Shown: one piece after another, positions 3,933-21,891 of the stretch | How the letters are laid out: each line of letters starts with the position of its first letter | How positions within the stretch are numbered: the first letter of the stretch is position 1 | Virus record (IMG/VR): IMGVR_UViG_3300036772_000143 | Coordinates: 1 to 36,053 of that record | Source: a virus | Strand: one strand, 5' to 3' | Length of the DNA stretch: 36,053 bases | Translations under genes and position numbers: made by a program | Notes under the pieces: generated by a model | Databases searched by the model: none | What the model saw: only the letters and a program-made list of their open reading frames with translations | Told to the model about the DNA's origin: nothing

Positions 3933-4406
3933 TCAGAATGGCCATGGCTCAATCTCTATGCGCCGCAGCGAGCCCCGGCGCGCAACAAAGCCGATGCCCT
4001 CGATCATTGCCGGCTCGGCGATCTCAAACCCAAAGAACTTCGCGAAACGCATCGCCACGGTGTCGTCATGGTGCAGATAGCATACGATCTCGTGGCGCAT
4101 TTCCATGATTCGCGCAAGTTCAGTGCGGCCCTCCTTTACCACGCGCAATGGGAATTTCTTCGCGGCTCTACTGAGTTGTAGCCAGAAGAGCCCGGCCGGC
4201 GACATCAATGAGCCGGTGACGCCCCACAGCGCGATCGGCTCGTCATCGAGTAAGGCGGTGCGCCGGTATGACGATTGCCGAAAGAACCCGCGGATCACCC
4301 GACGCGGATCGCGGCCCAGCCCGATGAACCGCGCGCAATCGCTCTCCGACATCTGCCGGGCGATCATCCCAACATGACGCGGCTCGGCATCGACGATGCG
4401 GATCAT
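3933..4406 (-). CDS. GNAT-like acetyltransferase-fold protein (T7 gp13 position)
   Basis: 157 residues. It resembles the short GNAT-fold proteins that podoviruses carry between the nozzle and core-protein genes. Features are an N-terminal MIRIVDAEPRHVGMIA strand-helix, a central core (LLDDEPIALWGVTGSLMS) that resembles GNAT strands 2-4, and a C-terminal AMRFAKFFGFEIAEP typical of the final GNAT helix-strand. The canonical acetyl-CoA pyrophosphate loop (Q/R-x-x-G-x-G/A) is not clear, so enzymatic activity is uncertain and it may be purely structural. The start codon overlaps the nozzle gene stop by four bases (ATGA). T7 gp13 fills this position and is needed for assembly of the internal core. 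Confidence 0.65.
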   Translation of the reverse strand: MIRIVDAEPRHVGMIARQMSESDCARFIGLGRDPRRVIRGFFRQSSYRRTALLDDEPIALWGVTGSLMSPAGLFWLQLSRAAKKFPLRVVKEGRTELARIMEMRHEIVCYLHHDDTVAMRFAKFFGFEIAEPAMIEGIGFVARRGSLRRIEIEPWPF

Positions 4407-7189: not shown

Positions 7190-7195
7190 GACGCC

Positions 7196-8131
7196 TCAGT
7201 ACGCCGAGCCGTCGCCGAAGCTGATGCTGTCCCATCCCCCGCTGAAGACCCCAGGCCATCCCCCACCGTCCGGTCCCCATCCGAAGTTTGCGTTCCACGA
7301 TGCCCCCGCGTTTCTCGCCCGCAGAAAATCCGGCATGTGGTCGACCGAGCTCCACATCTCGTTGCCGTCGGTGATGCGCGCTTGGCTGATCGCTTCCTTG
7401 CAAGCCGCAATTGCCTGACCGCGCATCGCCAGGCCGAATTTCTTATCCTTGGCAAGCGGCAATGCCACCCGCGATGCCAAGAGTTGAACAAACGCCTCTT
7501 GAAAAAGAGCGTCCCACTCGTCCGGATAATCGACAGCCGCCGTATAGATAAGGCTCGCGTTCTGTACATTAGTCAGAACCACAGTGCGCTGCTGCGGTCC
7601 CACGCCTTGTATATTCTGGATATCGGGGAGTTGGCTCCAATCGCTTATTGCTCCTACGACGGCCGGATAGTTGAAATCGAGCGCCACCAAAAACCGGGCC
7701 GGAACGAGACGCACATTGAACGGATTTACGACATTGAGGCCGGGCATGCTGACCGTACCGGGGAGCGGCGGTCCCTGTACCAGCGGGAAAGAGCCCGAAA
7801 ACTGCGGAAGCATGTTCTGCTGTTGAGCGTTCTGCGGGACGAACCGCGCCTTTAGCGCGTCGATCGGCCACTGGTATTCGTAGATCCAGGGCGACGGGAC
7901 CACAGAACCCACATTAGGCGTCTGCCCCGTGGCGTCGGCCAACAAGGCCATAGGCGCTTGCTTGCGGGCGAAATTCCAATGCGCCGACCGCAGCAGTTCG
8001 TGCAATGCCGGCACATAGGCGCGGAGCAACGGCTTGGATTGCTCGGTTCCCTCTTCGAGATCCCCGATCGTCGGGCCGGACCAGCCCGAGGCATCTAGCG
8101 CGCGGTTGGCGATATCGGCTGCGACGGTCAT
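7196..8131 (-). CDS. Tail adaptor / tail tubular protein A, copy 1 (longest)
   Basis: 311 residues. It begins ADIANRALDASGWSGPTIGD and continues with LRAYVPALHELLRSAHWNFARK, the helical opening of gp11-like tail tubular A proteins, which form the ring joining portal to nozzle. Later come WIYEYQWPIDALKARFV, the family's hallmark block, and a helical end. Two further paralogues lie directly upstream (8128-8742 and 8742-9332). This copy is the longest and has an extra Gly/Trp-rich tail (WGPDGGGWPGVFSGGWDS). Its start overlaps the stop of copy 2 by four bases. The call rests on family pattern and on position next to the nozzle gene. Confidence 0.82.
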   Translation of the reverse strand: MTVAADIANRALDASGWSGPTIGDLEEGTEQSKPLLRAYVPALHELLRSAHWNFARKQAPMALLADATGQTPNVGSVVPSPWIYEYQWPIDALKARFVPQNAQQQNMLPQFSGSFPLVQGPPLPGTVSMPGLNVVNPFNVRLVPARFLVALDFNYPAVVGAISDWSQLPDIQNIQGVGPQQRTVVLTNVQNASLIYTAAVDYPDEWDALFQEAFVQLLASRVALPLAKDKKFGLAMRGQAIAACKEAISQARITDGNEMWSSVDHMPDFLRARNAGASWNANFGWGPDGGGWPGVFSGGWDSISFGDGSAY

Positions 8132-8742
8132 CCTTCTTTGGCCTCCGCCGCCTGCATTGCGGCCACTTCGTCACCCGCCTCGACCTTGGCGGCATCCAGG
8201 TTCGCAAGAACCGGCGCAAGGCGGCGCGCGAGGGAGGCAATCAGCTCTTCGAGAAACATCGGCTCCATCGCCAGCGGATCGGTCACCTGTCCCGTGTAAA
8301 CCAGGATCGCGTTCACAACATCGGTGAGGATGACTTGTGCCGGCGGCGTAAGCGTAGGGTCATTGGCGACGCGGAACACTTTCGGCCGCGGCGCGAAGGA
8401 AGGGATTAGTATCGGCTGCCCTCGAATCGAGCGCACCTTCAATGTGTCGCCCGGATATAGATATTCGTAGCGCCACGGAAGAATCGGGTAGGTAGAAGTC
8501 CACGGCGTCACCGGGGTATAGCCGCCTGGCGGGGCAGTCTTGAGAAGCGTCAGCGAGACAATCCGCTCGGCAAACCCCCAATCCTTGGAACGCAGCAGCT
8601 CGTCCCGCGTCTGGCCGTAGATGTCGAGCGCGGCTTTGCTTGCTGTCGAGCCGTCGTAGAGCGAGCCGATCCGAAATTTCCATCCAAGGCGGACCAACGC
8701 GGCATTGCAAGCGTCCTCCGGCGAAGCGAGCGACAGCGGCAT
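8128..8742 (-). CDS. Tail adaptor / tail tubular protein A paralogue, copy 2
   Basis: 204 residues. It is a diverged paralogue of its neighbours. It opens SPEDACNAALVRLGWKFRIG, continues with ALDIYGQTRDELLRSKDWGF (equivalent to the LLRSAHWNF block of copy 1), then WRYEYLYPGDTLKVRSIRGQ and AILVYTGQVTDPLAMEPMFL, and ends in a helical, acidic segment. The last two blocks also occur in copy 3. Start and stop overlap the flanking genes by one and four bases, so the three copies should be translated together. It is probably a structural subunit at the portal-tail junction. Whether it builds a mixed ring with the others or a separate layer cannot be read from sequence. Confidence 0.75.
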   Translation of the reverse strand: MPLSLASPEDACNAALVRLGWKFRIGSLYDGSTASKAALDIYGQTRDELLRSKDWGFAERIVSLTLLKTAPPGGYTPVTPWTSTYPILPWRYEYLYPGDTLKVRSIRGQPILIPSFAPRPKVFRVANDPTLTPPAQVILTDVVNAILVYTGQVTDPLAMEPMFLEELIASLARRLAPVLANLDAAKVEAGDEVAAMQAAEAKEG

Positions 8743-9332
8743 CAGCTATCCCTCGTCTCCGCCGGAGTCTCGAAACCCTGCATAGTCTCCAACAGCGATC
8801 GAACCGTCTCCGGCCGCCCCGCTATCGCCATCGCGAGTTCCGACGCCAGGAGACGCACCACAACTTCGGTAAATCCCGCATCCCAAAGAGTTTCGGTCAC
8901 TTGCCCCGAATAGACGGCAAAACCTGCCGCGAGGTTTGTCAGGATCACCTTCGTCGGCACACCGGCGATCAGATCGTTTCCCACAGACCAGCGTATCGGC
9001 AGCGGATTGTTCGGGTCGGTGATCGTGGTCGGCACAAGCTGGCGGACTTGGACGCCATTGGTCGGATAGAGATATTCGTATTTCCACACGACACCCAACG
9101 ATATGATAGGACCTAGATTTCCGGATTGTAGCGCCGCTGTGGAACGAGCGAAATCCCAGCCGAATTGCCGACCGACGGTATTGACGACGCCGACGTAAAG
9201 AGCAGTGCAAGCAAGCCCCGCAGTCGATGTGTCGAAGGTCGGGGTTGGATAGTTGCCGCTGCCGGTTATCGCGGGCTGATTGTCCCCGATAAGTTGGATC
9301 GCGCGATTGGCGATGTCGACTGAAAGCGTCAT
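8742..9332 (-). CDS. Tail adaptor / tail tubular protein A paralogue, copy 3
   Basis: 196 residues, transcribed first of the three. It starts TLSVDIANRAIQLIGDNQPA, close to the start of copy 1 (TVAADIANRALDASGWSGPT). It continues GRQFGWDFARSTAAL, WKYEYLYPTNGVQVRQLVP and FAVYSGQVTETLWDAGFTEV, and shares the last two blocks with copy 2. It lies six bases after the GH54-like gene and overlaps copy 2 by one base. The N-terminus thus resembles copy 1 and the middle resembles copy 2, which suggests serial duplication or recombination between copies. Function as a tail adaptor subunit is inferred from the family. Confidence 0.75.
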   Translation of the reverse strand: MTLSVDIANRAIQLIGDNQPAITGSGNYPTPTFDTSTAGLACTALYVGVVNTVGRQFGWDFARSTAALQSGNLGPIISLGVVWKYEYLYPTNGVQVRQLVPTTITDPNNPLPIRWSVGNDLIAGVPTKVILTNLAAGFAVYSGQVTETLWDAGFTEVVVRLLASELAMAIAGRPETVRSLLETMQGFETPAETRDS

Positions 9333-9338
9333 CGCGGC

Positions 9339-11066
9339 TTAAGGAAATGATAGGCCACGGTATGCCTTTGTGATATTATGCTGGATTGCAGCCGCATCGC
9401 GATCCGATAGTGCCGCATTGGTTATCATACCCTCGCGGAAACGAGTTCCCTGGGGGGAAAGGTCACCTCCTCCGCCGAGATGGATGCTGGTGCCAACATT
9501 AAAATACGGAGAAGCAGATTTTATTGTGTTGAACTGCTGCGCCCCGTTGAGATAACCCGTAACGCCATATGTATAGTTAAGTTGGAAAGCCATAATCTGG
9601 ATTGACCACGGAGCCGTCGTGATGGTTGGTGCATAGGTCAACAGAGCGCTGGACCGTACCATGCCACCGGCAACCGTCCAATTGGTTGTTGCAGTACTGC
9701 CAGTTGTACCTGCCCTTATGGGCGGGGTTACCCAAGCGGCATTCGACGCATCTTGCGTAAACGTGTCACCAGACGGGCCATTAGTTGCAAGCACACCTAA
9801 GTACAGCTCGTTTGGAGAGATAGGGGCAGCGTTCGCAGTGACTGTGGGAGCTGTGCTCGATCCCCCGTTACCGTGAGTAACTGCCGAATCGCGCGCATTG
9901 CCGGCGAGGAATATCCCGGTGGCGTAGAACGCAGAGATCGCGACGGTATTAGTCGTGCCCGACGTATTCGTGTAGGTAATAAGATTACCGGAGTTTAGAG
10001 CCAGACTATTGTAAGCATAGGCAATCAAATCAACTCCGTTGACAGCTGCGTTGTTGTTAACACCATGAGCAATGCTTACGTCGTAGGAGTTCGTAGCGGT
10101 ATCAGTAATCGTAAGTTGGCTGCTCCCCGTCGCTTGAGTGCTCATGACGACGCAGATTAGCGACCCGGCTGGTATACCACCGGCCGGGACAGTGATCGAA
10201 AGAGTCCCGCTATTGGCGAGCGCCTTGACGGAGTTTGTCCCGATGTTGTTGACGCTGACGAGTGGGATAACGGGATTCACGGCGCTCGCGGCGACGACGT
10301 TTTCCTGGCTCGCGAAGCTCGCGCCGACTTGCCCCTGACCCTCATAGTCTGCGGCAAGGCACCAATCCGTTGAGACACCGCAACTCTGATACGAGCCGGT
10401 TCCGTACCCGACCGCAACCTCATTCGTCGAGTTGCTGACATAGGCGACGCAGCAGTTATGACTCAGCCCGAACGATCCGGCGTTTGTCGCAGAATATGCA
10501 GGGACGGCCTGACCAACGAACAGAACACTGTTCGGAGCCTGACCACCCGTGACGCCCAGCGCCGTCTGGTCGGTAGTTAGGGTGTACTGGTATTGTCCGG
10601 TATCCGCCTCCATGATCGGCAATCCGGTCGCCGACTCAATTACAAGAGGGGCCGCGCAATTAATAGGCACTCCGGCACAGGTGAAAAAATTAGACGGCAC
10701 CAAATTGTTGGCCGAACCGTGAATCTGTGCGTAAATCGTGTATATCGCACAATTGCTCGCGGTCCCGCTGCAGAACTTGGACCAGGTAGTCATGTCGGCA
10801 TACCCGGCAGCCGTCTGCCCGATGTCGAGCCTGGTGGTCGGAGTGCTGATGAGGGCGAGCTGAAGCAAGGGGCCGTGATAGCTCGCAACCATGCGCCGCG
10901 TGACGCTCCACGCTTCGGCGCAGCCACCGACGATGACGTTGCAGGGGCCGACGTACCTTTGCCTCAACGGCGCGTCGAGCGTGAAATCCTGGGCGGGGAC
11001 CGAGGGTGAATTCAGCCCCAGACAAAGCCCGGCCAGTACGACCCTAAAAATCAACGCAGGAGACAT
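9339..11066 (-). CDS. Secreted GH54-like alpha-L-arabinofuranosidase domain protein with large inserted domain
   Basis: 575 residues with a signal peptide (hydrophobic residues 5-19, likely cleavage after PSVPAQ). After it the sequence follows the GH54 (fungal AbfB) catalytic fold: PCNVIVGGCAEAWSVTRR at 41-58, NCAIYTIYAQIHGSANNL, then HNCCVAYV with a vicinal Cys pair at 205-206, and AADYEGQGQ at 238-246. The last block is LGGGGDLSPQGTRFREGMIT, with D535. In AbfB the vicinal disulfide C176-C177, D219, nucleophile E221 and acid/base D297 (in GGD) build the site; each has a counterpart here (CC205-206, D240, E242, D535). Between about 253 and 500 lies a Thr/Ser-rich beta domain absent from AbfB, resembling tail-fibre Ig-like modules. 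The product may trim arabinose-bearing surface glycans. Its start lies 23 bases inside the upstream gene. Confidence 0.72.
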   Translation of the reverse strand: MSPALIFRVVLAGLCLGLNSPSVPAQDFTLDAPLRQRYVGPCNVIVGGCAEAWSVTRRMVASYHGPLLQLALISTPTTRLDIGQTAAGYADMTTWSKFCSGTASNCAIYTIYAQIHGSANNLVPSNFFTCAGVPINCAAPLVIESATGLPIMEADTGQYQYTLTTDQTALGVTGGQAPNSVLFVGQAVPAYSATNAGSFGLSHNCCVAYVSNSTNEVAVGYGTGSYQSCGVSTDWCLAADYEGQGQVGASFASQENVVAASAVNPVIPLVSVNNIGTNSVKALANSGTLSITVPAGGIPAGSLICVVMSTQATGSSQLTITDTATNSYDVSIAHGVNNNAAVNGVDLIAYAYNSLALNSGNLITYTNTSGTTNTVAISAFYATGIFLAGNARDSAVTHGNGGSSTAPTVTANAAPISPNELYLGVLATNGPSGDTFTQDASNAAWVTPPIRAGTTGSTATTNWTVAGGMVRSSALLTYAPTITTAPWSIQIMAFQLNYTYGVTGYLNGAQQFNTIKSASPYFNVGTSIHLGGGGDLSPQGTRFREGMITNAALSDRDAAAIQHNITKAYRGLSFP

Positions 11067-11535
11067 AGATGTTTATCAGGTCGGTAGAGGTCAGGGCAGT
11101 CGCGAAGGTCGCCTGTATCGTATCGCCGGAGACCAGAATGATATAGGGATTGCCGTACTGGTCCAGCGGGAGCCCGGGCCAGTTCGTCGGCGACATCAGC
11201 GCCTTTGCGGGAGCGCCGTTAGCAAATCCGTCGTTCACAGCGGTCGTGATCGCCATGCCGCCATACTTGACCGAGGTGTTGACGATTTGCACGGTCACGA
11301 GATGGGTCGCGGTGCCGTCGTTGTTGGTCTCGTACATGCCGACGCAGCGCGATCCGGCGGCGGCGCCCGTGTAGAGGGTCTTGTAAGTCCCGGCGGTATC
11401 GGTGCCCTGAAGAAACTGGACGATGCCGCGGTTGGGGGTCTGAGCGGTGATGATGCTATTTGGTGTAGTCGCCGCATATGAGATGCATGGAAGCAGAGCG
11501 GCGGCTATGGCTACAGCAATCTTGTGCCACTGCAT
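11044..11535 (-). CDS. Secreted beta-rich protein of the tail-fibre block
   Basis: 163 residues from the ATG at 11535, just after the small gene's stop (TGAAAATG). A GTG further upstream in the same frame is not favoured because it would bury the signal peptide. The N-terminus is a textbook Sec signal: Lys5 near the start, hydrophobic core IAVAIAAALLP, then a SYA-A cleavage site. The mature part is beta-rich and uncharged, with QFLQGTDTAGTYKTLYTGAA and a closing LTSTDLINIYVSCVDF. The pattern (accessory tail protein with a 'Y.NPYIILVSGDTIQATF' strand region) is seen near phage tail genes, but I cannot name a family. It overlaps the GH54-like gene by 23 bases. Confidence 0.7.
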   Translation of the reverse strand: MQWHKIAVAIAAALLPCISYAATTPNSIITAQTPNRGIVQFLQGTDTAGTYKTLYTGAAAGSRCVGMYETNNDGTATHLVTVQIVNTSVKYGGMAITTAVNDGFANGAPAKALMSPTNWPGLPLDQYGNPYIILVSGDTIQATFATALTSTDLINIYVSCVDF

Positions 11536-11537
11536 TT

Positions 11538-11705
11538 TCAAAGGCCGCCCAACCCCAAATTGGTGTTGTTGATTGCGGCGGCTGTCACCGTCGCCTGCGT
11601 CCACTTGATGTTGAGCTCATTGTGACCAGCTTGCGCTGAAACCGCTAGTCCGAGCAGAAACATTCCACCCCCGAAGAGGATCATGTACAGGGCTCTCTTG
11701 CGCAT
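11538..11705 (-). CDS. Small secreted or membrane-anchored protein (55 aa)
   Basis: A 55-residue frame in the gap between two larger genes; it is too short for most gene callers. It starts MRKRALYMILFGGGMFLLGL and continues AVSAQAGHNE, a convincing signal peptide with a positive N-region and an AQA cleavage site. That leaves a mature part of only about 29 residues, NELNIKWTQATVTAAAINNT and NLGLGGL. It ends three bases before the next ATG (TGAAAATG), which suggests coupled translation. No clear SD sits at optimal distance from its own ATG. I do not recognise a family. The tight fit and the shared export signal with its neighbours are the main reasons to call it real. Confidence 0.55.
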   Translation of the reverse strand: MRKRALYMILFGGGMFLLGLAVSAQAGHNELNIKWTQATVTAAAINNTNLGLGGL

Positions 11706-11730
11706 GGCGGCGGCGTCTACCTAGACATTT

Positions 11731-12429
11731 TTATTCCACGAACCAATTCGTCCCGTCGGAAATTACACATAATTCCTGACGGGCTTGGTTCATCACAATA
11801 CCGGTCGATCCGGCTACGCCGTCGATCGTTCCGGAGGTTGGCGATTTCAATGTCGCGTTATTGGTGGCGAAATTGGTCGTGCCGTCTTTCACGCATTCGC
11901 GCCAGCCAGCCGTCTGAACCGCCGTTGGCAAGTTGATTGTCGAGGCCGCTGGAGTGCCCATCGACACGATAGTCGTTAGCAAGTTGGTTGCCGCAATCGT
12001 GATGGGCGAGGTGCCCGAGGCCGTAGCTGTGGTCGGGATTAGCGGGCTGCCCGATGATGCGGCGGTGATCAGCCCCTTGGCATTGACCGTAAGCGACGTG
12101 TTCGTGAAGCTGCCGACATTGCTGTTGACCGTGGCCAAGGTTAAGGTGCCGGATGTGCCCAGGGTGGCATCGCCGCCCATCGTCTGCCAGCCCGGATCGG
12201 CAGCAGTCGCGCCCAGGAACATCTGGCCGTTGGTGCCGACCGCAGTTGCGACGACCGCGCCGGTGCCCTCGCCGATCAGAACCCCGTGAGTCAGCAATGT
12301 CTGCGCGCCAGTGCCACCATTTGCTACGAGCAGCGGCGGCGTGCCGGTGTAGGCGGCATAAGAGAGCGTCGGCGCGAGCGCCAACGCAGCCGCTACAAGC
12401 GCCCTAATGATGATGCGATACTTTGCCAT
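11731..12429 (-). CDS. Tail-fibre-like protein with signal peptide
   Basis: 232 residues. Residues 1-25 form a Sec signal (MAKYRIIIRALVAAALALAP, then a SYAA cleavage site). The mature part opens with LLVANGGTGAQTLLTHGVLI and GTNGQMFLGATAADPGWQTM. That GGTG...L..G...GQ.L.G pattern is typical of repeats in phage tail-fibre and collar proteins. Then come beta repeats (GDATLGTSGTLTLATVN, ITIAATNLLTTIVSMG), and it ends in DGTNWFVE, a common fibre-tip ending with a Trp. Tail fibres normally assemble in the cytoplasm, so an export signal here is unexpected. The 3' end lies 25 bases from the 55-aa gene and the 5' end overlaps the preceding gene by 26 bases. Confidence 0.72.
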   Translation of the reverse strand: MAKYRIIIRALVAAALALAPTLSYAAYTGTPPLLVANGGTGAQTLLTHGVLIGEGTGAVVATAVGTNGQMFLGATAADPGWQTMGGDATLGTSGTLTLATVNSNVGSFTNTSLTVNAKGLITAASSGSPLIPTTATASGTSPITIAATNLLTTIVSMGTPAASTINLPTAVQTAGWRECVKDGTTNFATNNATLKSPTSGTIDGVAGSTGIVMNQARQELCVISDGTNWFVE

Positions 12430-12691
12430 TTACTCCCTCCGAATATTGCCGCCACCACTCAGCCTGTAGGCCGATCCCGTCGACATAGCTGGCCCACCAC
12501 TCGGTCATCGTGACTTGCCGCTCGCGCGCCTTGCGCAAGTTCCCGGCATTCACCGCCAGCTCGTCCATCGCGTTGTTGCGCTCGACCTTGAGTTCGCACA
12601 CCGTCGGGTCTTCGCGCGGATCGCACGCCTCCGGCCCCGCCGCAAAGGCGGCCACCGATGCCAGCAAAAAGAAGATCAGCCAATGAGCCAT
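12404..12691 (-). CDS. Small secreted helical protein (95 aa), function unknown
   Basis: 95 residues from the ATG at 12691, preceded by TTAGGA. A GTG 21 bases upstream in the same frame would place seven residues in front of the signal. Residues 1-18 are a hydrophobic signal or anchor (WLIFFLLASVAAFAAG). The mature part has two cysteines close together (EACDPREDPTVCELK), suggesting a disulfide if exported. A helical, charged segment follows (ERNNAMDELAVNAGNLRKAR), then a Trp-rich part, and the end is His-rich. Its size and layout resemble small periplasmic lysis accessory proteins such as spanin components, but no specific family signature is visible, so that is only a possibility. It overlaps both neighbouring genes. 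Confidence 0.6.
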   Translation of the reverse strand: MAHWLIFFLLASVAAFAAGPEACDPREDPTVCELKVERNNAMDELAVNAGNLRKARERQVTMTEWWASYVDGIGLQAEWWRQYSEGVNGKVSHHH

Positions 12692-13323
12692 TTTCCTAAC
12701 GTCGCATTCCACCTGAAATCGAGGCTTCCATTGTTTTGATTGATGCTCGCCGTCGGAGCGCTATCGATCATTATGACGCCGCCGGCAGTGATAGTAATGG
12801 GATTTGCCGTAGCGTGCCCGGTGGCATCTTTCACCTGATAGGTGACGCCATTTGTGGGTGATGCCGTTAGCGTGTAAGTCTGCGGCCCCCCTGCCGTATC
12901 TAGGTCAACTGGGATTGCGCCACCGCCACCGCCGCCGCTGAGCGCAGCTATCGCCGCGGTCGTGGTTTGAGTCGCCATCGGACCAACTCCAATGAGGACA
13001 ATTTCGTTACCACGAAGGTTGGTGACATTGATTGCACCGGGAATCGCCGGCGTCGGATCCGGAAGTTCCCCAAGATCGAACTGTCTTGGCTCGAAAAGCT
13101 GTGGTCGCACCGCTATTCTGGCAGGCGAAGGCTCGATGAGTTGCGGAGCCCTTTCAGGAACGGCTCTCCACATCATTTCGGGAACTAGCGGAACGATCGA
13201 TGCTATTCCAGCGGCTCGCGGGACATTCGAGGCTCTTGCTATGTTCGGCGCGACTCCGATGGCGCGCGGCCAATTGGGGTGGCCCGCCGATATCCTCGGC
13301 AATTCAAGGTCGCTATCCGCCAT
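12676..13323 (-). CDS. Tail-fibre protein with distal tip domain (no signal peptide)
   Basis: 215 residues. The first 85 are rich in Pro, Arg and Ile with repeated R-A and I-A-R/P motifs (WPRAIGVAPNIARASNVPRA). They are followed by a Gly run (GGGGGG near 130). The C-terminal 80 residues form a compact beta domain common at phage fibre tips: PQTYTLTASPTNGVTYQVKD, then GHATANPITITAGGVIMID and FRWNATLGKWLIG. Unlike most genes around it there is no signal peptide. It is therefore the best candidate in this block for an ordinary virion-attached fibre. The ATG at 13323 lies 27 bases after the preceding stop, and its end overlaps the 95-aa gene by 16 bases. Confidence 0.7.
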   Translation of the reverse strand: MADSDLELPRISAGHPNWPRAIGVAPNIARASNVPRAAGIASIVPLVPEMMWRAVPERAPQLIEPSPARIAVRPQLFEPRQFDLGELPDPTPAIPGAINVTNLRGNEIVLIGVGPMATQTTTAAIAALSGGGGGGAIPVDLDTAGGPQTYTLTASPTNGVTYQVKDATGHATANPITITAGGVIMIDSAPTASINQNNGSLDFRWNATLGKWLIG

Positions 13324-13350
13324 TTCGCGCGGCGCAGCGGTAACTGTAGA

Positions 13351-13608
13351 TCATTTGGGCGTTACCACTGGTTCTGCCGATTTGCATGCCTCGCCACACT
13401 TGGTCTTGAGGGCTTCGGTCTGGGCCTTGAGGGTTTCAATCTGTTGGCTCAGTTGGACGGCGTTGGCCCGCATCTGCCCGAGTTCGAATAACGCCTGCCC
13501 GGCCGTCGCTTCGAGCGCGGCCTTGCGCAGTTCGGGACTTTCCTGGGCAAGCGCCGGGATGGCGCTCGCCAGTAGCGCCGCAAAAATAATGGCTCCTCTA
13601 GCAGACAT
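13351..13608 (-). CDS. Small secreted coiled-coil protein (85 aa)
   Basis: 85 residues. I chose the ATG at 13608 because GGAGG stands eight bases before it. Two other starts upstream in frame (ATG with MAEALS, and one at 13689) would hide the signal. Residues 1-21 are a Sec signal (hydrophobic GAIIFAALLASAIPALAQ). The mature part is an amphipathic coiled coil (ALFELGQMRANAVQLSQQIE, LKAQTEALKTKCGEACKS) with a Cys-x3-Cys near the end. Size and layout are reminiscent of small periplasmic helical proteins, including some lysis proteins, but there is no basis for naming it. It lies between a large secreted fibre-like protein and the unsignalled fibre. Confidence 0.62.
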   Translation of the reverse strand: MSARGAIIFAALLASAIPALAQESPELRKAALEATAGQALFELGQMRANAVQLSQQIETLKAQTEALKTKCGEACKSAEPVVTPK

Positions 13609-13654
13609 GGACAGCGCCTCCGCCATTCCAGAGTGATCCGATCGCCACCTCAAC

Positions 13655-15280
13655 TCAGTAGCTCGCCAGCGCAACACGTTTGAAAACATTCGTCGAAGTG
13701 CACACGTAAATAAAGTTGGCGTCCCAGGCTATCTGTCCAGCCCCACATGGCCCCGTATCAGTTTCGGTTGTTGGCGTCATCGAATAGCCGCCTGGCGCCG
13801 TCATGCCTCCGGCGAGCATCATCGATCCCGTCCCGGTGACGTTCATCACAAGCGTCGGCGCGCCCGACGTCAGCTGGTAAAAATAAAACCCTCCGCCGCC
13901 AATGACCTGATTGAACCAATCAGCCTCGTTGTTCCCGTTCGTGTAGTTTGAGGAGATAAAGCTCCCGTGCGTTTGCGCAGGCTGTGTCGTGGCCGGATTG
14001 GCGCCGGTCATTGTCAGCGCTATCCCCGAGAGCGCCCCCGCGCCCGAAATGAACGCCCCCGTGGACTTCCACGCGTAGCCCGTGATGTTGTATTGGCTGA
14101 GATCGACGCCCGTGGCGACCGTTGCCATGTTGGCGGTGGTGCACAACACGCAACCCGTGCTGGTCAGCGGACTTGCGCCATTGCCATTTGAGAGCAAAAT
14201 GGCGTTCTGAAATCCTATGCCGCCAGGCTGCGCGCCGATTGCCAGCGCCGCGTCGATAGCGGTCCCGCTTACCTTGTCGAGAGCATGATCGACGATTTGC
14301 AGTCCGGTCTTTTCCGAGGCTGATGTCCCCGTTTCGAGTGCGACATTTATTTCGCCTCCCGAGACGTTCGTGAGCGCCGTCCCTACTTTCGCGTCTCCGA
14401 ATGTGCCGATACCAAATATCGATCCGGCGGTCGTGTTGATATTGTTGACGTTTGTCCCGCCATCGCCACTAAATGCAACCATTTGAAAGAAACCGCCAGT
14501 GTAATTGCGGTTCGTGTTGCTGGCGCTGGTAGCTCCTTTATCGAAATATCCATCGACTTCGAGGGCGTTCTGGCCGCCGATGACTGTTGAGCCGCCAAAC
14601 TCATGCTCTATCAACAAGGTGCTGGTGAAATTGCTGTTGCCGCTTTGGGTGCCGGTATTGATCGTATGCAGAAAATTGGCTGCCGTAGGACCGGCCCCAT
14701 AAGAGCCGTTGAGGGTCGCCGTCACATCGATCGTGAACCCATGCGTCGGCTGCGGAAATCCGGTCTGTGTCAGCACCAGTTGCGGCAAGCTGCTGGCGAG
14801 CGTTCCTGTGGTATTGTTGAAGTAGGCCAGACATCCGATGCACGAAGAGTTCGGCCCCAAGATGTTCCCCTGTCCGTTGCCGGGGAACTGGTACATCGAG
14901 CCGTTGATCGCGAAATTCAGAACCGTAGGGGCGGCCGCCCCTAGTGGGCCGAGAGCAATCAGCGCGCCCCCTTGCGCATTCGGATCCCAGCATAGGTAAT
15001 GAGCCCCTGCAGCGCCCGTCAGCGACGGTTGATCATAGGAGCAGTTGTGCGTACCGAGCGGCCCCGTTCCCGCCGCGCGGTTGACCTGCAGTGTCTCGGA
15101 CAGGCCCTGGCCGAGCGAGAAACTTCCCGCCGGTCCCTGGTCCTGCAAGAAACCGTTTTGCAACAACATCGTGCCATGCCCAGGGGTGGCTGGCCCGGCC
15201 TGCAGCAAAGCACCTTGCGCCCACGCCAGCGCGGGCAGCAATATCAACGCGGCGGTTAGGGCAAGGTGGCGCAGGATCAT
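13655..15280 (-). CDS. Large tail-fibre/spike-like protein with signal peptide
   Basis: 541 residues. A signal peptide (HLALTAALILLPALAWAQ, cleavage after WAQ) is followed by beta-rich, Gly/Thr/Asn/Ser-rich sequence with hardly any charge. The mid-part (about 180-340) has strand-turn sequence such as GGFFQMVAFSGDGGTNVNNI and VSGGEINVALETGTSASEKT. This resembles the beta-solenoid shafts of phage fibres that list virtual 'tracks' of a surface-recognising protein. A Cys-x-x-Cys pair (SSCIGCLAY) and another pair near 395 (CVLCTT) may form disulfides if exported. The C-terminus (PCGAGQIAWDANFIYVCTST, FKRVALASY) is a common end for short phage tail proteins. It overlaps the preceding gene by four bases. 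Function is inferred; the receptor is unknown. Confidence 0.7.
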   Translation of the reverse strand: MILRHLALTAALILLPALAWAQGALLQAGPATPGHGTMLLQNGFLQDQGPAGSFSLGQGLSETLQVNRAAGTGPLGTHNCSYDQPSLTGAAGAHYLCWDPNAQGGALIALGPLGAAAPTVLNFAINGSMYQFPGNGQGNILGPNSSCIGCLAYFNNTTGTLASSLPQLVLTQTGFPQPTHGFTIDVTATLNGSYGAGPTAANFLHTINTGTQSGNSNFTSTLLIEHEFGGSTVIGGQNALEVDGYFDKGATSASNTNRNYTGGFFQMVAFSGDGGTNVNNINTTAGSIFGIGTFGDAKVGTALTNVSGGEINVALETGTSASEKTGLQIVDHALDKVSGTAIDAALAIGAQPGGIGFQNAILLSNGNGASPLTSTGCVLCTTANMATVATGVDLSQYNITGYAWKSTGAFISGAGALSGIALTMTGANPATTQPAQTHGSFISSNYTNGNNEADWFNQVIGGGGFYFYQLTSGAPTLVMNVTGTGSMMLAGGMTAPGGYSMTPTTETDTGPCGAGQIAWDANFIYVCTSTNVFKRVALASY

Positions 15281-15912
15281 TTGCGGCGGCTGTCCGCAGC
15301 CGGCGCTTGCGCCTTGCGCGCCTTCCCCGCCGCACCTTCTGTATCCTCTGCGCCTTTGTCATCGGCGATCTCGACCGGAACGTGGTGTGGCCCGACTTCG
15401 TGATCCTGGAGCCACACGACTTCGCCTGCGAGTTTTAGCACATCGCCAACGAACGCTCTCTCCATCAGCATGTACGACTTCGGCTCGCTTGGCTCCGGCG
15501 GCTGACCGACGGGCTCCAATTCAGGGTTTGATCCGGGGGCATGATATCCGGCCGCACGCGGCAACCAGGCGTGGCTCTCGCCGTGCGGCGCTGGGTTGAT
15601 CCTCTCGATGTGAGAATCCAGATCGCTCCGCGTCGTATCGATGGGCGTCATCACAGTACGCCTGCCATCGACAAGGATTGGCACACCATTGAAAAATCCC
15701 GGTGCCGGCTTTGTCGGATGGTGCTTTACGAGCATCGCGTTTTTAGGTTCGGGTAGCGCTTCGATAAAGGCCCACGCCTCCTCGTCAGCAACGAACCTCT
15801 TCCCGCGGGGATCGTCGACCAATTCCGGAACCATGAGAGCCATCCGATCGAAGACATCATCGCCCACGGAAAGCTCGATTTTGCCGATTTGGTTGTCGAA
15901 TATCAGGCGCAT
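15277..15912 (-). CDS. Conserved phage protein of unknown function (211 aa)
   Basis: 211 residues. The N-terminus (MRLIFDNQIGKIELSVGDDV) looks like a small beta unit. It is followed by PELVDDPRGKRFVADEEAW and KNAMLVKHHPTKPAPGFFNG, and a mid-part with VPILVDGRRTVMTPIDTTR. The last 80 residues are Pro/Glu-rich, with YMLMERAFVGDVLKLAGEVV and a basic, Ala-rich end. No signal peptide or catalytic signature is visible. It sits between the first signal-peptide block and the capsid-staple-like gene, so a structural or head-accessory role is possible. Its ATG lies one base after the upstream stop, and its end overlaps the following start by four bases. Confidence 0.6.
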   Translation of the reverse strand: MRLIFDNQIGKIELSVGDDVFDRMALMVPELVDDPRGKRFVADEEAWAFIEALPEPKNAMLVKHHPTKPAPGFFNGVPILVDGRRTVMTPIDTTRSDLDSHIERINPAPHGESHAWLPRAAGYHAPGSNPELEPVGQPPEPSEPKSYMLMERAFVGDVLKLAGEVVWLQDHEVGPHHVPVEIADDKGAEDTEGAAGKARKAQAPAADSRRK

Positions 15913-15913
15913 T

Positions 15914-16219
15914 TCACTCTTCCATGCTCTCCGTCATTTCGTTCTCGACGGCCATCTTCTGGATCTGCAACTCGATGCGGCAGCATGGCCCATTAGGGCC
16001 GTCGTTCTTGCTGACCGATGTCACGACCGCAAAGGCGCGCAGGTCGATCATGTCGCCCACATTGCAGTCATCGTCCAATTCCATTTTTTCGAGCTCGCTC
16101 TCGGTGAGGCAGAGGCGCAGCCCGCACGGATAATCCGGCCGCTCCATCGGCATTGGCATCATCGTGTCGAGCTTTTCCTCGTCGGTCATTTCGAGGTCGA
16201 CGAGCTTGGACCAGGCCAT
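15914..16219 (-). CDS. Capsid staple-like / head accessory protein
   Basis: 101 residues, acidic and Met-rich. It starts MAWSKLVDLEMTDEEKLD and continues YPCGLRLCLTESELEKMELD. Next come the MIDLRAFAVVTSVSK strand and a C-terminal CCRIELQIQKMAVENE. The order (AWSKL, then C/YG-L-R-x-x-L-T-E-x-E, then a short beta barrel) matches small head proteins of podoviruses and siphoviruses often described as capsid staples or decorations. Two adjacent cysteines (GPCCRIE) are notable. It lies in the accessory head cluster, three bases after the next gene's stop. I place it by family pattern from memory, so the specific name is less certain than the head-accessory role. Confidence 0.55.
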   Translation of the reverse strand: MAWSKLVDLEMTDEEKLDTMMPMPMERPDYPCGLRLCLTESELEKMELDDDCNVGDMIDLRAFAVVTSVSKNDGPNGPCCRIELQIQKMAVENEMTESMEE

Positions 16220-16222
16220 CGC

Positions 16223-16639
16223 TTAGGCCGCCTTCGCTGCCGGAACCTCGCCAGCCCCACCTTCGGCGCCACCCTCGCCACTGGGCGTCTCGCCCGCCAC
16301 CGCCGCTTCGCCTCGCCCAGCCTCGGCCATCTGACGCTCGTTCAGTTCCTTGAATTGCTTTTCATGCCGAGACTGCATTTGCCGGTGCTGCTCGCGATGA
16401 CTCCCGTGCAGGTCGCGGCGCTCGGTCTCGTGCTGTTTCGCCAGCGCCGCACGCTCTTCGACGTGGCGCTCCTCGTGGCCTCCACCAGCTTCGGCGTCGG
16501 GCTTTTCGGCCTGTTCGCCGTCTTCCTTACCCTTGTCCTCGCGTCCTTCAGTCTCGCGCTCCGGCTCATGCTCTTCAGGCGCTTTCTTCTTGCCGTACAG
16601 CGCCGAGCGCCGGCCGCGCTCTTCCTTCTCTTCGGCCAT
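16223..16639 (-). CDS. Highly charged protein with N-terminal RRSALYGK tag motif
   Basis: 138 residues, nearly all charged or small. The N-terminus contains RGRRSALYGKKK (R10-K17), an R-R-x-x-L-Y-G-K motif shared with two neighbouring small proteins and the scaffold C-terminus. The middle (about 55-110) is a Glu/Arg/His helix likely to be a coiled coil (HETERRDLHGSHREQHRQMQ), and the end is Gly/Ala/Glu-rich and probably disordered. A strong SD (AAGGAG, spacing eight) stands before the ATG and overlaps the last codons of the preceding gene. No family is recognised. Location among head genes and the shared tag suggest a capsid-associated or procapsid-packaged protein (inference). Confidence 0.65.
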   Translation of the reverse strand: MAEEKEERGRRSALYGKKKAPEEHEPERETEGREDKGKEDGEQAEKPDAEAGGGHEERHVEERAALAKQHETERRDLHGSHREQHRQMQSRHEKQFKELNERQMAEAGRGEAAVAGETPSGEGGAEGGAGEVPAAKAA

Positions 16640-16642
16640 CGG

Positions 16643-16933
16643 TCAGTCTCCTTTGCCGTATAGGGTCTGGCGGCGGGACTTCTTCTTGCCGCCACCGTGC
16701 ATGCCCATCAGCGTGAGCGCCAAGCGCGCCTGCTTGCCGGTCTTGCCTTCGTCGCCCTTGTGCTCATCGGCATAGGTCCGGGTGGATTCCCCAGCAGCCT
16801 CGGCCTTCGCGCGGAATTGGCCGTGAGCGTTCGACGTCGCTCCGGAGATCCATTTCTTCTTCGCCACCGGCCTCTCCCTCTGGGGCGCCATCCGCGACTG
16901 GAGATCCGCGATCGAGAGATGCTGCCCGGCCAT
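16643..16933 (-). CDS. Small basic protein with capsid-arm-like N-terminus and RRQTLYGK C-terminal tag
   Basis: 96 residues from the ATG at 16933: AGAGG stands six bases before it, whereas for the ATG at 16939 the same SD would touch the start. The N-terminus MAGQHLSIADLQSRMAP nearly copies the major capsid protein start (ATGQWLSIADLAHRLDP). The middle has a small domain common in phage head regions: KKKWISGATSNAHGQFRAKA, then GESTRTYADEHKGDEGKTGK and QARLALTLMGM. The C-terminus is KKSRRQTLYGKGD, the tag motif shared with its neighbours and the scaffold. Net charge is strongly positive, which would suit DNA contact or capsid interior. Function is unknown; the paired mimicry of capsid and scaffold ends suggests a role in procapsid assembly. 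Confidence 0.75.
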   Translation of the reverse strand: MAGQHLSIADLQSRMAPQRERPVAKKKWISGATSNAHGQFRAKAEAAGESTRTYADEHKGDEGKTGKQARLALTLMGMHGGGKKKSRRQTLYGKGD

Positions 16934-16952
16934 CCTCATCCTCTAATGCGAA

Positions 16953-17003
16953 GCCTCGCCGGGGTTGCCATCTTCGCCTCTCAGCCAAAGACCCCGGCGA
17001 GGC
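16953..17003. other. Perfect 12-bp inverted repeat (RNA hairpin candidate)
   Basis: GCCTCGCCGGGG at 16953-16964 is matched exactly by CCCCGGCGAGGC at 16992-17003, with a 27-base spacer. It fills most of the gap between the two tagged small genes. No T-tract follows on either strand, so a Rho-independent terminator is unlikely. An mRNA processing or stability hairpin, or a partial block that lowers expression of the genes downstream on the minus strand, would fit. Confidence 0.55.
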
Positions 17004-17025
17004 CCCGATTTCCCCCGAAGGGAAC

Positions 17026-17196
17026 TCAGTCTTTGCCGTAGAGCGCCGAACGGCGCCCCTTGGGCTTGGATTTCGTCTCCGGAAGCTTGCCGCCAGGATC
17101 GGCGTCGGCGAACTCTTTGGCTGCCGCGCCCTCTTTCGTGTCCTTGTCCTTGTTCGCGAAGGCCCAGCGGCGCTGCGCTTGAGATACGGGCGGCAT
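17026..17196 (-). CDS. Small basic protein with RRSALYGK C-terminal tag (56 aa)
   Basis: 56 residues. The ATG at 17196 overlaps the upstream stop (TAATG), so the longer GTG-type start upstream is not needed. It starts MPPVSQAQRRWAFANKDK, a pattern (P-x-S-x-x-Q-R-R-x-A/W-x-A) shared by many tiny phage proteins found near head genes. A short charged linker (KEGAAAKEFADADPGGKLPE) leads to KPKGRRSALYGKD at the very end (R48-K55). The motif is nearly identical in the two neighbouring genes and is similar at the scaffold C-terminus. Size leaves room for little besides the two motifs, so it probably acts as a bridge or tag-carrying peptide. No enzymatic function is likely. Confidence 0.7.
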   Translation of the reverse strand: MPPVSQAQRRWAFANKDKDTKEGAAAKEFADADPGGKLPETKSKPKGRRSALYGKD

Positions 17197-17690
17197 TACG
17201 CGTCTGCGTAGTGATACCAAGTAGCCGTGAGCGCGATGTAGGTCCGGCAGTATCTGCTGCCAACGGCTCCGGCTGTCTCGGTCGCTGCGCCGGCAAGGGT
17301 CTGTCCGGTATTAGCGCTAACGGTAACTGCGGTCTGTATCTGGTTCGATGTCCAGCAAACTCGCTGGCCATCATTTGGAACCGCCGGCATGATGATCGTG
17401 CCAGTCGCAAGCGTGCCGGCTGGATTGAGGAACAACAGCGAGATGTTGTTTGGAATGGTGATCGAGAAACCGGTAACAGGAACCTGATAAGAAACCGATT
17501 CCTGGCCGCCAATCGCTCCTGGCGAAGCATAGACGCTCTGCGCGCCCGCCAGCCCATTTGGCACAACCTGCACCAGATCTCCTTGGTGCATCGGGGAGAG
17601 GACCGGAGGCGTCTGCTGCGCGAGCGAGGAGCCGCCGAGACCCAACAGAGCCGACAGAACTGCGGCGGGGATTGCGCGAAAGAATTTCAT
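17196..17690 (-). CDS. Secreted fibre-tip-like protein A
   Basis: 164 residues from the ATG at 17690, which overlaps the preceding stop (ATGA) with GGAG just before. An upstream frame extension lacks an equally good start. The signal peptide is clear (KFFRAIPAAVLSALLGLGG, then SSLAQQ). After a linker of about 50 residues comes the domain LLFLNPAGTLATGTIIMPAV, followed by PNDGQRVCWTSNQIQTAVTV, NTGQTLAGAATE and finally TWYHYADA. The next gene upstream carries the same P-A-G-T-[IL]-A/x-x-T-I-x-M-P unit, so the two are paralogues. The domain is typical of fibre distal ends. Export of such a domain as a stand-alone protein is the unusual feature. Confidence 0.7.
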   Translation of the reverse strand: MKFFRAIPAAVLSALLGLGGSSLAQQTPPVLSPMHQGDLVQVVPNGLAGAQSVYASPGAIGGQESVSYQVPVTGFSITIPNNISLLFLNPAGTLATGTIIMPAVPNDGQRVCWTSNQIQTAVTVSANTGQTLAGAATETAGAVGSRYCRTYIALTATWYHYADA

Positions 17691-18193
17691 TGGCTCCGAT
17701 CCCAGGTTTTGTTGCTCGCAGAATAAGCCCAGCAAATTCCGTTCTGGTTGGCTGCCGCGAAGGTCGTAGCCGGCGCATTCAGCGTCTCGCCCGAACCGCT
17801 GCGCACTTGCATCGTCAGCGTCGTGACGATCTGGGTCGAGAAGATGCACAGCTCAGCTCCATCCACCGGCAAATTTCCGGGAGTCGGCCCGTCCGGCATC
17901 TGGATCGTCAAAGCGGCTATGGTGCCGGCCGGCTGAATTATCAGCCGCGATGTGTTTGGGGGCGGGATGACGGTTGCGCCGGTCAGCGGGGCCGTCTTCA
18001 GGTAGCCCTGAGCTTCCCGTAATTGGGTCAGGTAGACAGTCTGATTCATCCCTGTCGGAAAGGGGCTGGTCGGCGTCACCGAGAGGATTTCCGAGCCGGT
18101 CGGTGACGGAAGCTGCGTCGTGCCGGTCTGCGCAAAGACCTGAGACGTGAAGCCGATCAGAAAAGCGAGCGCGATGATGATGCGGCGCTTCAT
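17687..18193 (-). CDS. Secreted fibre-tip-like protein B (paralogue of A)
   Basis: 168 residues. The signal peptide is MKRRIIIALAFLIGFTSQ with cleavage near VFAQ. A mid-part (SEILSVTPTSPFPTGMNQTV, LREAQGYL) leads to the domain RLIIQPAGTIAALTIQMPDG, then LPVDGAELCIFSTQIVTTLT and an end with KTWDRSQ. It aligns by eye with the C-terminal half of the following gene: PAGT, x-T-I-x-MP, DG, a lone Cys, S-x-Q, then G-x-T and a final Trp. The two overlap by four bases and are probably a tandem duplication with a common role. It has no obvious catalytic residues. Confidence 0.7.
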   Translation of the reverse strand: MKRRIIIALAFLIGFTSQVFAQTGTTQLPSPTGSEILSVTPTSPFPTGMNQTVYLTQLREAQGYLKTAPLTGATVIPPPNTSRLIIQPAGTIAALTIQMPDGPTPGNLPVDGAELCIFSTQIVTTLTMQVRSGSGETLNAPATTFAAANQNGICWAYSASNKTWDRSQ

Positions 18194-18194
18194 G

Positions 18195-18608
18195 CTACAA
18201 GATCCCGAAGGCGGTTGCGGCGGTGCCGGTGGCGCTGAAGCGGTAGTTGACGACGCCGCCCGTTATCGTCGGGGCGTGCAGCCGATAGCACACACCTCGC
18301 TCCGGCTCGCCGACGACAACTGATAGGTCCGTGTTCGCCGTGCTGTAGACGGCCGGCGTCGTGCCGCCGATCATGCACACATACCAGGTCACGCCGCCGT
18401 CGAACGAGCGCTCGATCTGCATCGAGCCGCCCCATACCCCGTTCGGGCCACTCGCACCGCCGGCCACGATGTTGAACGCGCCGATACACTGGAATGTCGC
18501 GCTTACCTGCGACGTGCCGCTGATTGCGAATTGCCCGGTGAGCACGGCATTGGCCGCATCGCCCGCAGGCGGCGTCAGAACCGGTGGCGGATTTAGCGGG
18601 ATTCCCAT
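18195..18608 (-). CDS. Beta-rich head accessory or virion protein
   Basis: 137 residues, no signal peptide. The core GPNGVWGGSMQIERSFDGGV followed by TWYVCMIGG matches the 'GtWgGtvqLeRSfDgGaTW' pattern of small virion proteins that lie close to capsid genes in many tailed phages. Flanking strands are FAISGTSQVSATFQCIGAFN and ERGVCYRLHAPTITGGVVNY. It starts three bases after the preceding stop and ends one base before the secreted paralogue pair. It is likely a capsid-surface or head-tail decoration protein with an Ig-like or jelly-roll fold; that is inference from the pattern. Confidence 0.6.
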   Translation of the reverse strand: MGIPLNPPPVLTPPAGDAANAVLTGQFAISGTSQVSATFQCIGAFNIVAGGASGPNGVWGGSMQIERSFDGGVTWYVCMIGGTTPAVYSTANTDLSVVVGEPERGVCYRLHAPTITGGVVNYRFSATGTAATAFGIL

Positions 18609-19963: not shown

Positions 19964-21010
19964 TCAGACAACGCGCGCTTCGGTCGTGAGGAGCTGATCC
20001 ACGACCCTGATTGGAATGTCTCTAAACCCATCCGTGACCCTTCCGGCGTAGTCGTCGATGCGTAAGAGGACGTTGCGGTCGCGCATTCCCTGCACGTCCA
20101 TCCAGTGCCGCCCGGTGCGGTTTGTGTAGAAGCAGGGACGGATACCGGGTGACGATTCATCCGGCGCATCGACGCGAGTAATGCCACTCTGCTTCTTGCC
20201 GAGGGTCGGCGGCAGGTACATCATCTGCGCCATCAGCGCGAAAATATCCGCCGCATTGGGGCCGGCGAGGCCGGCGTTCGTCACGTCGACATTGGCGAGC
20301 CGGGCACCGTAGCGCCAATCCATCGGGACGAGCCCGGCCTGGTGGCGAAACCATGACGTATAGGCTTCGAAGCGGTTGCCGAGGTTATCGAAACCCGGAA
20401 CCGTATCGCCCTTGTTCTCCATCGTCAGGCCCGCCTTGGACCCGCGCGGATAGACGTTCATGATCGTCCGCTCGCCCCAGCATAAGAGCCAGATCGAGAG
20501 GTTCGAGGAGCCGGTGCCGAGCCCGTCGATGACATTGGCCGCATTGAGCGCGGTGCCGGTGGCAACCGTGTTGTAGAACGGAGATAGCCCCATGTACTGC
20601 GCCGGATTGGCGACCGAATTCCCGTAGAATTCGGTCTGCGTCATGGTCTGGCCCATGCCTTCCATGAAGGCCACGTCCTCCGACTCCCGGTACTTGTCTA
20701 CATCGCCCGAGGCTTCGGCCTCCCAGCGGTCGATCTGCGAGTAGCCTTCGAGGCTGCCGAGACCAACACGCGCTTGTGCCGTGGTGGACTTGCCGTAGGG
20801 CACGCCGGCATTAATCGCGCGCCATGCGCCGGGGGGAATGCTGGTTCGGAAGGTAAATTGATGGCCGCCTACTTCATTGGCCTCGATCCACGGCACATCG
20901 TCCCAAAGCTCGTTGGCCTGGGACATCATCTCGGCAATATAATCTATCCTCTGATAGGGATCTAACCTATGAGCAAGATCAGCTATGCTTAGCCATTGAC
21001 CTGTGGCCAC
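19964..21010 (-). CDS. Major capsid protein (GP7/epsilon15-BPP-1 type, HK97 fold)
   Basis: 348 residues from a GTG start with a strong SD (GAAGGAG, spacing about seven). Characteristic family blocks are RLDPYQRIDYIAEMMSQANE, LWDDVPWIEANEVGGHQFTF, GVPYGKSTTAQARVGLGSLE and EASGDVDKYRESEDVAFMEG. Then come FYGNSVANPAQYMGLSPFYN, WGERTIMNVYPRGSKAGLTM and a C-terminal RHWMDVQGMRDRNVLLRIDD. It forms the icosahedral shell. The first 17 residues (LSIADL core) recur in the small protein at 16643-16933. The first 25 codons are more AT-rich than the rest of the gene, which would keep the translation start free of structure. Flanked by scaffold and cement genes, as in BPP-1. Confidence 0.88.
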   Translation of the reverse strand: MATGQWLSIADLAHRLDPYQRIDYIAEMMSQANELWDDVPWIEANEVGGHQFTFRTSIPPGAWRAINAGVPYGKSTTAQARVGLGSLEGYSQIDRWEAEASGDVDKYRESEDVAFMEGMGQTMTQTEFYGNSVANPAQYMGLSPFYNTVATGTALNAANVIDGLGTGSSNLSIWLLCWGERTIMNVYPRGSKAGLTMENKGDTVPGFDNLGNRFEAYTSWFRHQAGLVPMDWRYGARLANVDVTNAGLAGPNAADIFALMAQMMYLPPTLGKKQSGITRVDAPDESSPGIRPCFYTNRTGRHWMDVQGMRDRNVLLRIDDYAGRVTDGFRDIPIRVVDQLLTTEARVV

Positions 21011-21021
21011 TCTTTACTCCT

Positions 21022-21891
21022 TCACGATCCGCGCCCGTTTGGGCCGGGCTGGACTTCGCCATACATGGCTTGGCGGCGATTGGTTGCGGTAGGCCGGCGC
21101 CCGACGTCAGGGGGCGGCCGGTAAGAGACCGATGGCGCAATGGGTTCGTCGAACCGCCTGGCGACGTTGTGCAGAAGGCGCAGCAGCCACGGCATGTCAC
21201 CGGCGCCGGTCGTCCGCAGACCGTCGTTGAACTCGGCCATGTCCTGCTCGTATTTCTCGGTGCCGGGCTTGGCCGACGAGGCGAACAGATCGCGCATCTT
21301 GGCGATGGTGGTCATCGCGGTAGCGTGACCGGACCCGCCTATTTCGGGGTCCGCCATGACGCGGGCGCGTTCCGCAGCCCTGTATTGATCGAAGGTGTCG
21401 TGCTGATTCTGTAAAGCCGCCGCGTCGTAGCGCTGCATCTCGGCGATGTGGAAATCAACGAGCTGCTGTGCGGCTTCCTGCGGCAGATTGTGCGACGCAA
21501 AAAGCTCATTCGCCGCGGCGATGCGCTCTTGGTCTAGGGTGATGCCTTCGGGAAGCGTGAATGCCTCATAGGCCCGGGCAGTCGGCTGCGCAGTCTCGAC
21601 TGGCGTAGTGCCTTCAGACGGCGCCTCACTTTTGCCGGCGCCTTCCAGAAGAGTCGCGGTATCGGTGTGGAGTTTGGGCTTTTCGGCTTCCGCGGGCGGC
21701 GTCTCTGCCGGGGCTTCGATCGGTGTGGTTTCCGCCGATGGCTCGGTAACCGGAGTTGTGGTCGGCTCTACAGGGGGCGATTCGGGTGTGGTCGAGGCCG
21801 GAGGCGGTGCCGCTGCCGGTGTTTCCGGCGTTTCGGGGGCAGGCGCACTCGGAGCGGCTGGCGTGACGACTGGCTCGTCTGCCGGAGGCAT
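21022..21891 (-). CDS. Capsid scaffolding protein with RRQAMYGE C-terminal motif
   Basis: 289 residues. Residues 1-115 are a Pro/Glu/Thr/Ala-rich disordered region. The core begins LPEGITLDQERIAAANELFA, then ASHNLPQEAAQQLVDFHIAE, MADPEIGGSGHATAMTTIAK and MAEFNDGLRTTGAGDMPWLL. This pattern (ANELF...GL.QE.AQ.LVD..., DPEIGG) is that of phage scaffolding proteins next to GP7-type capsid genes. It would act as an internal chaperone of procapsid assembly and then leave. The C-terminal TNRRQAMYGEVQ (R272-E279) matches the RR-x-x-L/M-Y-G tag of three small basic proteins at 16223-17196. Ends of scaffolds commonly bind the coat, so the motif is a candidate coat-binding peptide. The capsid gene follows after 11 bases. 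Confidence 0.82.
   Translation of the reverse strand: MPPADEPVVTPAAPSAPAPETPETPAAAPPPASTTPESPPVEPTTTPVTEPSAETTPIEAPAETPPAEAEKPKLHTDTATLLEGAGKSEAPSEGTTPVETAQPTARAYEAFTLPEGITLDQERIAAANELFASHNLPQEAAQQLVDFHIAEMQRYDAAALQNQHDTFDQYRAAERARVMADPEIGGSGHATAMTTIAKMRDLFASSAKPGTEKYEQDMAEFNDGLRTTGAGDMPWLLRLLHNVARRFDEPIAPSVSYRPPPDVGRRPTATNRRQAMYGEVQPGPNGRGS

Follow-up and report, generated by a model that had tools for sequence, protein, structure and literature searches.

Conserved Sec signal peptides on candidate tail spikes of short-tailed alphaproteobacterial phages

A gene block at positions 9339-18193 of a 36-kb IMG/VR viral contig fragment (the window, 36,053 nucleotides) probably encodes the adsorption apparatus of an epsilon15/BPP-1-type podovirus of Alphaproteobacteria, whose components, judging from their sequences, would be exported through the host Sec pathway, fold in the periplasm and join the particle at lysis. 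This reading rests on predicted signal peptides that recur throughout a clade of related phages and are confined almost wholly to spike- and fibre-like proteins.

The recognised structural genes of the window all lie on the minus strand, and its portal, terminase, scaffold-like, major capsid, tail tubular A and B, and internal virion proteins have matches among podovirus families. The portal shares ~32% identity with those of epsilon15, BPP-1 and Caulobacter phages, and the podoviruses epsilon15, BPP-1 and Carin-1 possess homologues of its portal, capsid, tubular A/B and internal proteins, encoded in a similar order, a likeness that assigns the window to the epsilon15/BPP-1 type. The block lies between the gene for the major capsid protein (19964-21010, minus strand), which served as the query for finding relatives, and three tail tubular A-like genes with a nozzle (tubular B-like) gene (4403-9332, minus strand). 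Relatives of the nozzle (4403-7189) reach ~1300 aa and show variable inserts past residue ~117; in another part of the window, an HNH-like protein (30685-31056) has an N-terminal hydrophobic stretch, MNQTILPLAFLIPLAIMGVNYLPHSEPLC. Unlike the arrangement in the window, the tailspike genes of epsilon15, BPP-1 and Carin-1 (gp20, Mtd/bbp9 and Dpo31) follow the internal protein genes; their products open with a domain of the GNGxxTxFP type and carry no signal peptide. This N-terminal domain, sought as GNGxxTxFP(Y/F)xF, occurs in epsilon15, Jess A and Carin-1 as well as a MAG locus (L049), and was absent from the window, its relatives and the prophage of Rhizobium sp. BK313 described below, which by this feature lack a tailspike of the epsilon15 type.

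Signal peptides were called with a rule-based scorer of n-region charge, h-region and c-region for Sec substrates of signal peptidase I (SPase I), which calls for a positive n-region, an uncharged h-region and small residues at -3/-1. Among control proteins OmpA, LamB and MalE were recovered and PhoA was missed; the scorer also called 2.2% of shuffled N-termini and 6% of antisense ORFs, so that a call in a single genome is not proof and needs the support of relatives. Within the block, with genes named by their left coordinates, signals were called for 9339 (ATG 11066), 11044 (ATG 11535), 11538 (ATG 11705), 11731 (ATG 12429), 13351 (ATG 13608), 13655 (ATG 15280), 17196 (ATG 17690) and 17687 (ATG 18193), all of the SPase I and not the lipoprotein type; the starts at 13608 and 17690, and probably that at 11535, differ from the start of the longest ORF. 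Proteins with such predicted signals are termed exported below. The signals occur in 8 of the 15 genes of the block as against 1 of the 37 elsewhere in the window (Fisher p = 7e-5), and the exported proteins of the window contain 1.56 Cys per 100 residues, the others 0.67. A first-pass annotation had credited nine genes of the block with textbook signals; eight pass the scorer, but 12404 is weak and without a positive n-region. The tenth gene it named, 25830, adjoining the portal gene, does have a signal-like N-terminus, called from ATG 26093, but lies outside the block and has no fibre features.

Relatives were collected with two queries, the capsid protein and the mature N-terminal domain of 13655 in aligned form, and comprise ~40 viral loci. 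The second query retrieved 31 loci from viral contigs and none from genome contigs; in the latter, a capsid alignment picked up the Rhizobium prophage together with other loci. A single-sequence pattern scan of viral contigs with 9339 and 13655 found no close relatives, annotated phages and plasmids yielded only weak matches to the exported families, and no isolated phage of this clade was found. Most loci of sufficient length show the same order from capsid to tubular A: capsid, 19406, 18612, 18195, a short exported protein and four small genes, followed by the long exported spike, variable exported genes and the tubular A genes. When one rule was applied to families labelled by homology, a signal was found in 31 of 33 scored homologues of 13655 and in 17 of 19 members of the 17196/17687 family, as against 1 of 311 proteins in 18 other structural families; the conserved structural protein at 18195-18608 (minus strand) shows it in 0 of 16 homologues. 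Conservation across homologues led us to reject a chance origin. A hydrophobic signal is present in every one of the 30 homologues of 13655 whose N-terminus is complete, 29 of them called by the scorer and one (L040) without n-region charge; the search that found them was keyed to the mature domain, and thus did not select for the signal. Among 34 distinct long spikes, mean identity is 26% in the signal and 53% in the mature N-terminus, which the predicted AxA-type cut immediately precedes. The predicted SPase I signals are, in short, conserved as a class, independently of sequence identity, and the systematic export of fibre-like proteins proposed from the window is supported on these grounds and extends to the whole clade.

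The 13655 protein (LONGF; 13655-15280, minus strand) is a long tail spike or fibre protein of 541 aa with a signal at residues 1-21, a conserved mature N-terminal domain at ~22-160 that contains an invariant Cys pair (C80, C97), and a variable C-terminus. At least two Cys are located within the first 110 mature residues of all 34 long spikes, one of the two belonging to the search pattern, so that only the other Cys constitutes independent evidence. The C-terminal modules of some homologues match Pect-lyase_RHGA_epim, End_N_terminal, Peptidase_S74 and mtd_2nd, and several homologues hit PHROGs annotated as tail fibre or tail spike; the window protein itself has no Pfam or PHROG match, most long-spike C-termini have no Pfam family, and its AF2 model, of low confidence, yielded no PDB fold match. 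A conserved N-terminal domain joined to variable C-terminal modules, together with known spike or fibre modules in some members, is the pattern expected of tail spikes and RBPs, and by these sequence features the family looks like a set of candidate virion spikes. Two loci encode long spikes (L022:6587-8845 and L037:8472-12239) with an Mtd second-domain match and with a C-terminal endosialidase chaperone.

The short exported family comprises a fibre or connector protein of 164 aa (17196-17690, minus strand; signal 1-24, C-terminal beta domain with two Cys) and its paralogue of 168 aa (17687-18193, minus strand; signal 1-21, two Cys). The AF2 model of 17196 (pLDDT 82) matched TSP4, T4 gp9, T4/KP1 baseplate chains and the Pa223 capsid spike with Z of 7.6-10.3 over 86-96 residues, a result that points to a predicted T4 gp9/gp10-like connector fold. 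In this model the mature C-terminal domain resembles T4 gp9/gp10-type connectors, CBA120 TSP4 and the Pa223 capsid spike, and differs from those chains in having two cysteines and a Sec signal; they are virion proteins, and we know of no export signals on them. In two families the exported members usually carry two Cys and their non-exported homologues do not. Thus a non-exported paralogue of 17196/17687 (L022:3997) lacks both Cys that nearly all exported members carry, and in a family of 104-aa proteins two Cys are present in 2 of 3 exported members and more than one Cys in 0 of 9 non-exported ones; some exported members (L011, L005) are without the Cys pair.

The remaining genes of the block, likewise on the minus strand, are more diverse. 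The exported 575-aa protein at 9339-11066, with 11 Cys in its mature part, matches the catalytic domain of GH54 alpha-L-arabinofuranosidase B (PF09206) in two stretches (42.5 bits against a curated cut-off of 25) and is by this profile a putative GH54 arabinofuranosidase; no solved structure was matched by its sequence. It is adjoined by exported proteins of 163 aa (11044-11535, from ATG 11535; signal 1-21, two Cys) and 55 aa (11538-11705; signal 1-26), the second of which returned no homologue, and by a fibre shaft with knob of 232 aa (11731-12429; signal 1-25, two Cys), which matches annotated tail spike and baseplate proteins weakly and has homologues in L012 and L002 that also bear a signal. 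The hydrophobic N-terminus of 12404 (12404-12691) reads MAHWLIFFLLASVAAFAAG; a homologue in L012 is called as a signal peptide, and either export or anchoring is possible. A non-exported fibre protein of 215 aa (12676-13323), free of Cys and with a knob that matches a baseplate PHROG, provides an internal control. The exported, coiled-coil-like protein of 85 aa at 13351-13608 is read from ATG 13608, preceded by the SD GGAGG, and similar small exported genes, often coiled-coil-like, are found downstream of the long spike in other loci (L027:7413, L028:11661, L034:9321). The L037 spikes end in a stretch similar to this small protein, which suggests that proteins of the 13351 type are partners of the spike. 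Between the short and the long exported fibre genes, in the window and in nearly all relatives, lie four conserved small genes of cytoplasmic type (15914, 16223, 16643 and 17026; 15914-17196).

A separate observation concerns a short C-terminal K/R-x-x-LY-D-H-P-R-S-K-K-like motif, present in two small basic proteins (10 of 12 and 13 of 17 homologues) and on the scaffold-like protein (8 of 21 by strict regex), and elsewhere among the structural families only in 15914 (5 of 27) and 22387 (1 of 16). It occurs at 17026-17196, 16643-16939, 16223-16639 and 21022-21891 of the window and in L008, L010 and L044, and is possibly a capsid-loading tag common to the scaffold.

Spikes with and without a signal were encountered in prophages of Acetobacteraceae, where a spike located between tail genes bears the common motif W-x-QNYIPT-x-EW. 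The motif directly follows the signal in Gluconacetobacter entanii (two spikes, with Beta_helix and Pect-lyase matches) and in one further genome, and lies near the N-terminus of proteins without a signal in Acetobacter musti, Komagataeibacter intermedius, Saccharibacter and Bombella; spikes of the two kinds (L062 with signal, L064 without) occupy the same place between tail genes. Four further candidates with weaker motif scores comprise three with a signal and one without.

Relatives of the window capsid in cellular genomes include those of a prophage of Rhizobium sp. BK313 (71%) and of Hyphomicrobiales MAGs, and the exported long spike is present in all of these loci that reach its position; when 397 genomes of the order were searched with the long-spike alignment, BK313 alone was found. 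Read from its structural to its lysis genes, the BK313 prophage encodes exported fibre-like proteins of 163 aa and 767 aa only, and no other spike; two viral genomes likewise have no other spike past the giant internal protein. Near its lysis genes this prophage (L096) also carries glycosyltransferase, HAD/FkbH, capsule-synthesis-like and methyltransferase genes on both strands, which are probably a surface-polysaccharide conversion cassette.

From the signals, their conservation, the gene positions, the Cys pattern and the fibre and spike modules present in these sequences, we infer a route in which spikes, fibres and connectors would be exported unfolded via Sec, SPase I would cut just upstream of the conserved mature N-terminal anchor, the proteins would fold and form disulfide bonds in the periplasm, and lysis, by mixing the two compartments, would allow the spikes to attach to particles assembled in the cytoplasm and so enter the virion. 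In some phages, completed particles accept spikes or fibres in vitro, which makes joining in the lysate plausible. We regard as about evenly balanced the broader proposal of a two-compartment virion, with heads of cytoplasmic origin and spikes that pass through Sec and Dsb, are oxidised in the periplasm and are joined at lysis, in which otherwise similar spikes have acquired or lost the signal in more than one group of alphaproteobacterial phages.

Of the three meanings put forward in the first-pass annotation, the second, of virion components folded in the periplasm and assembled during lysis or afterwards, is the best supported: no spike candidates other than the exported proteins were found in the genomes read, some of these proteins carry classical tailspike modules, and closely similar Acetobacteraceae prophage spikes occur with and without a signal; a surface or superinfection role and lysogenic conversion each leave these three facts unexplained. 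It is unlikely that the exported proteins stay out of the virion and instead mask or trim the polysaccharide or receptor of the producing cell, against superinfection or the sticking of progeny to debris. The signals would be real in that case too, and the glycosidase-type domain of 9339, the polysaccharide-lyase-like domains of some long-spike homologues, the glycosyltransferase genes of the BK313 prophage and the example of WceF, a Tat-exported bacterial enzyme of tailspike fold that modifies the polysaccharide of its own cell (PMC7949094), are in its favour; yet on this view the genomes read would have no spike at all, and it explains neither why a conserved mature N-terminal domain is joined to variable C-termini nor why spikes with and without a signal have an N-terminal motif in common. 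A double use, in which exported spikes have a pre-lysis function in the periplasm or on the cell surface (exclusion, trimming) and then serve on virions once the cell has lysed, fits all the sequence data, and several exported paralogues per genome leave room for a division of labour; we consider it rather improbable, as it is more complex than necessary and there is no sign of passage through the outer membrane.

Lysogenic conversion, with the exported proteins as prophage-expressed cargo useful to the host, could draw on the BK313 prophage and on the varying set of genes that follows the long spike, but is very improbable, since in nearly all relatives the genes lie within the structural cluster between capsid and tail and not at its edge, and the spike itself bears a signal. 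That the N-termini are uncleaved hydrophobic anchors or chance stretches is hardly credible: although the rule calls some antisense ORFs as well, the signals are kept in 31/33 and 17/19 homologues, with the AxA-type cut directly before the conserved mature start, and are found in only 1/311 proteins of the other families.

Known cases of export differ in kind. WceF of Pantoea stewartii is a glycan enzyme of tailspike fold with a cleavable export signal, but the signal is of the Tat type and the gene is a bacterial one in a polysaccharide cluster, not a phage structural gene (PMC7949094). The Sec-exported lysins, Lys44 of fOg44 and the SAR endolysins, are tailed-phage proteins that use the host Sec pathway, but are lysis enzymes and not adsorption proteins (PMC6116005). 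The open-access literature gave no report of cleavable Sec signals on tail spikes or fibres, and the fibres of the Bcep22-like phage BcepIL02, considered as a precedent with proteomics, have no clear signal. Virion proteins with Sec signals do exist in the filamentous-phage coat proteins pIII and pVIII, but those phages assemble at the membrane, are extruded without lysis and have no tailed dsDNA capsid. What would be new here is the export of tail spikes, Sec-exported lysins and a Tat-exported enzyme of tailspike fold having been known before.

For tailed phages the usual assumption is that spikes and tail fibres fold, and are mounted on the particle, inside the cytoplasm. If the route proposed here is true, Sec-routed adsorption proteins would change the view of assembly for such phages, Dsb and signal peptidase would become host factors for infectivity, and the production of spikes with structural disulfides would be accounted for; since a prophage of this kind resides in a Rhizobium strain whose genome has been sequenced, the idea is open to direct test. 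Our analysis suggests that, for these uncultivated short-tailed phages of Alphaproteobacteria, the host periplasm may serve as the site in which spikes fold and acquire disulfides before they join the particle at lysis.
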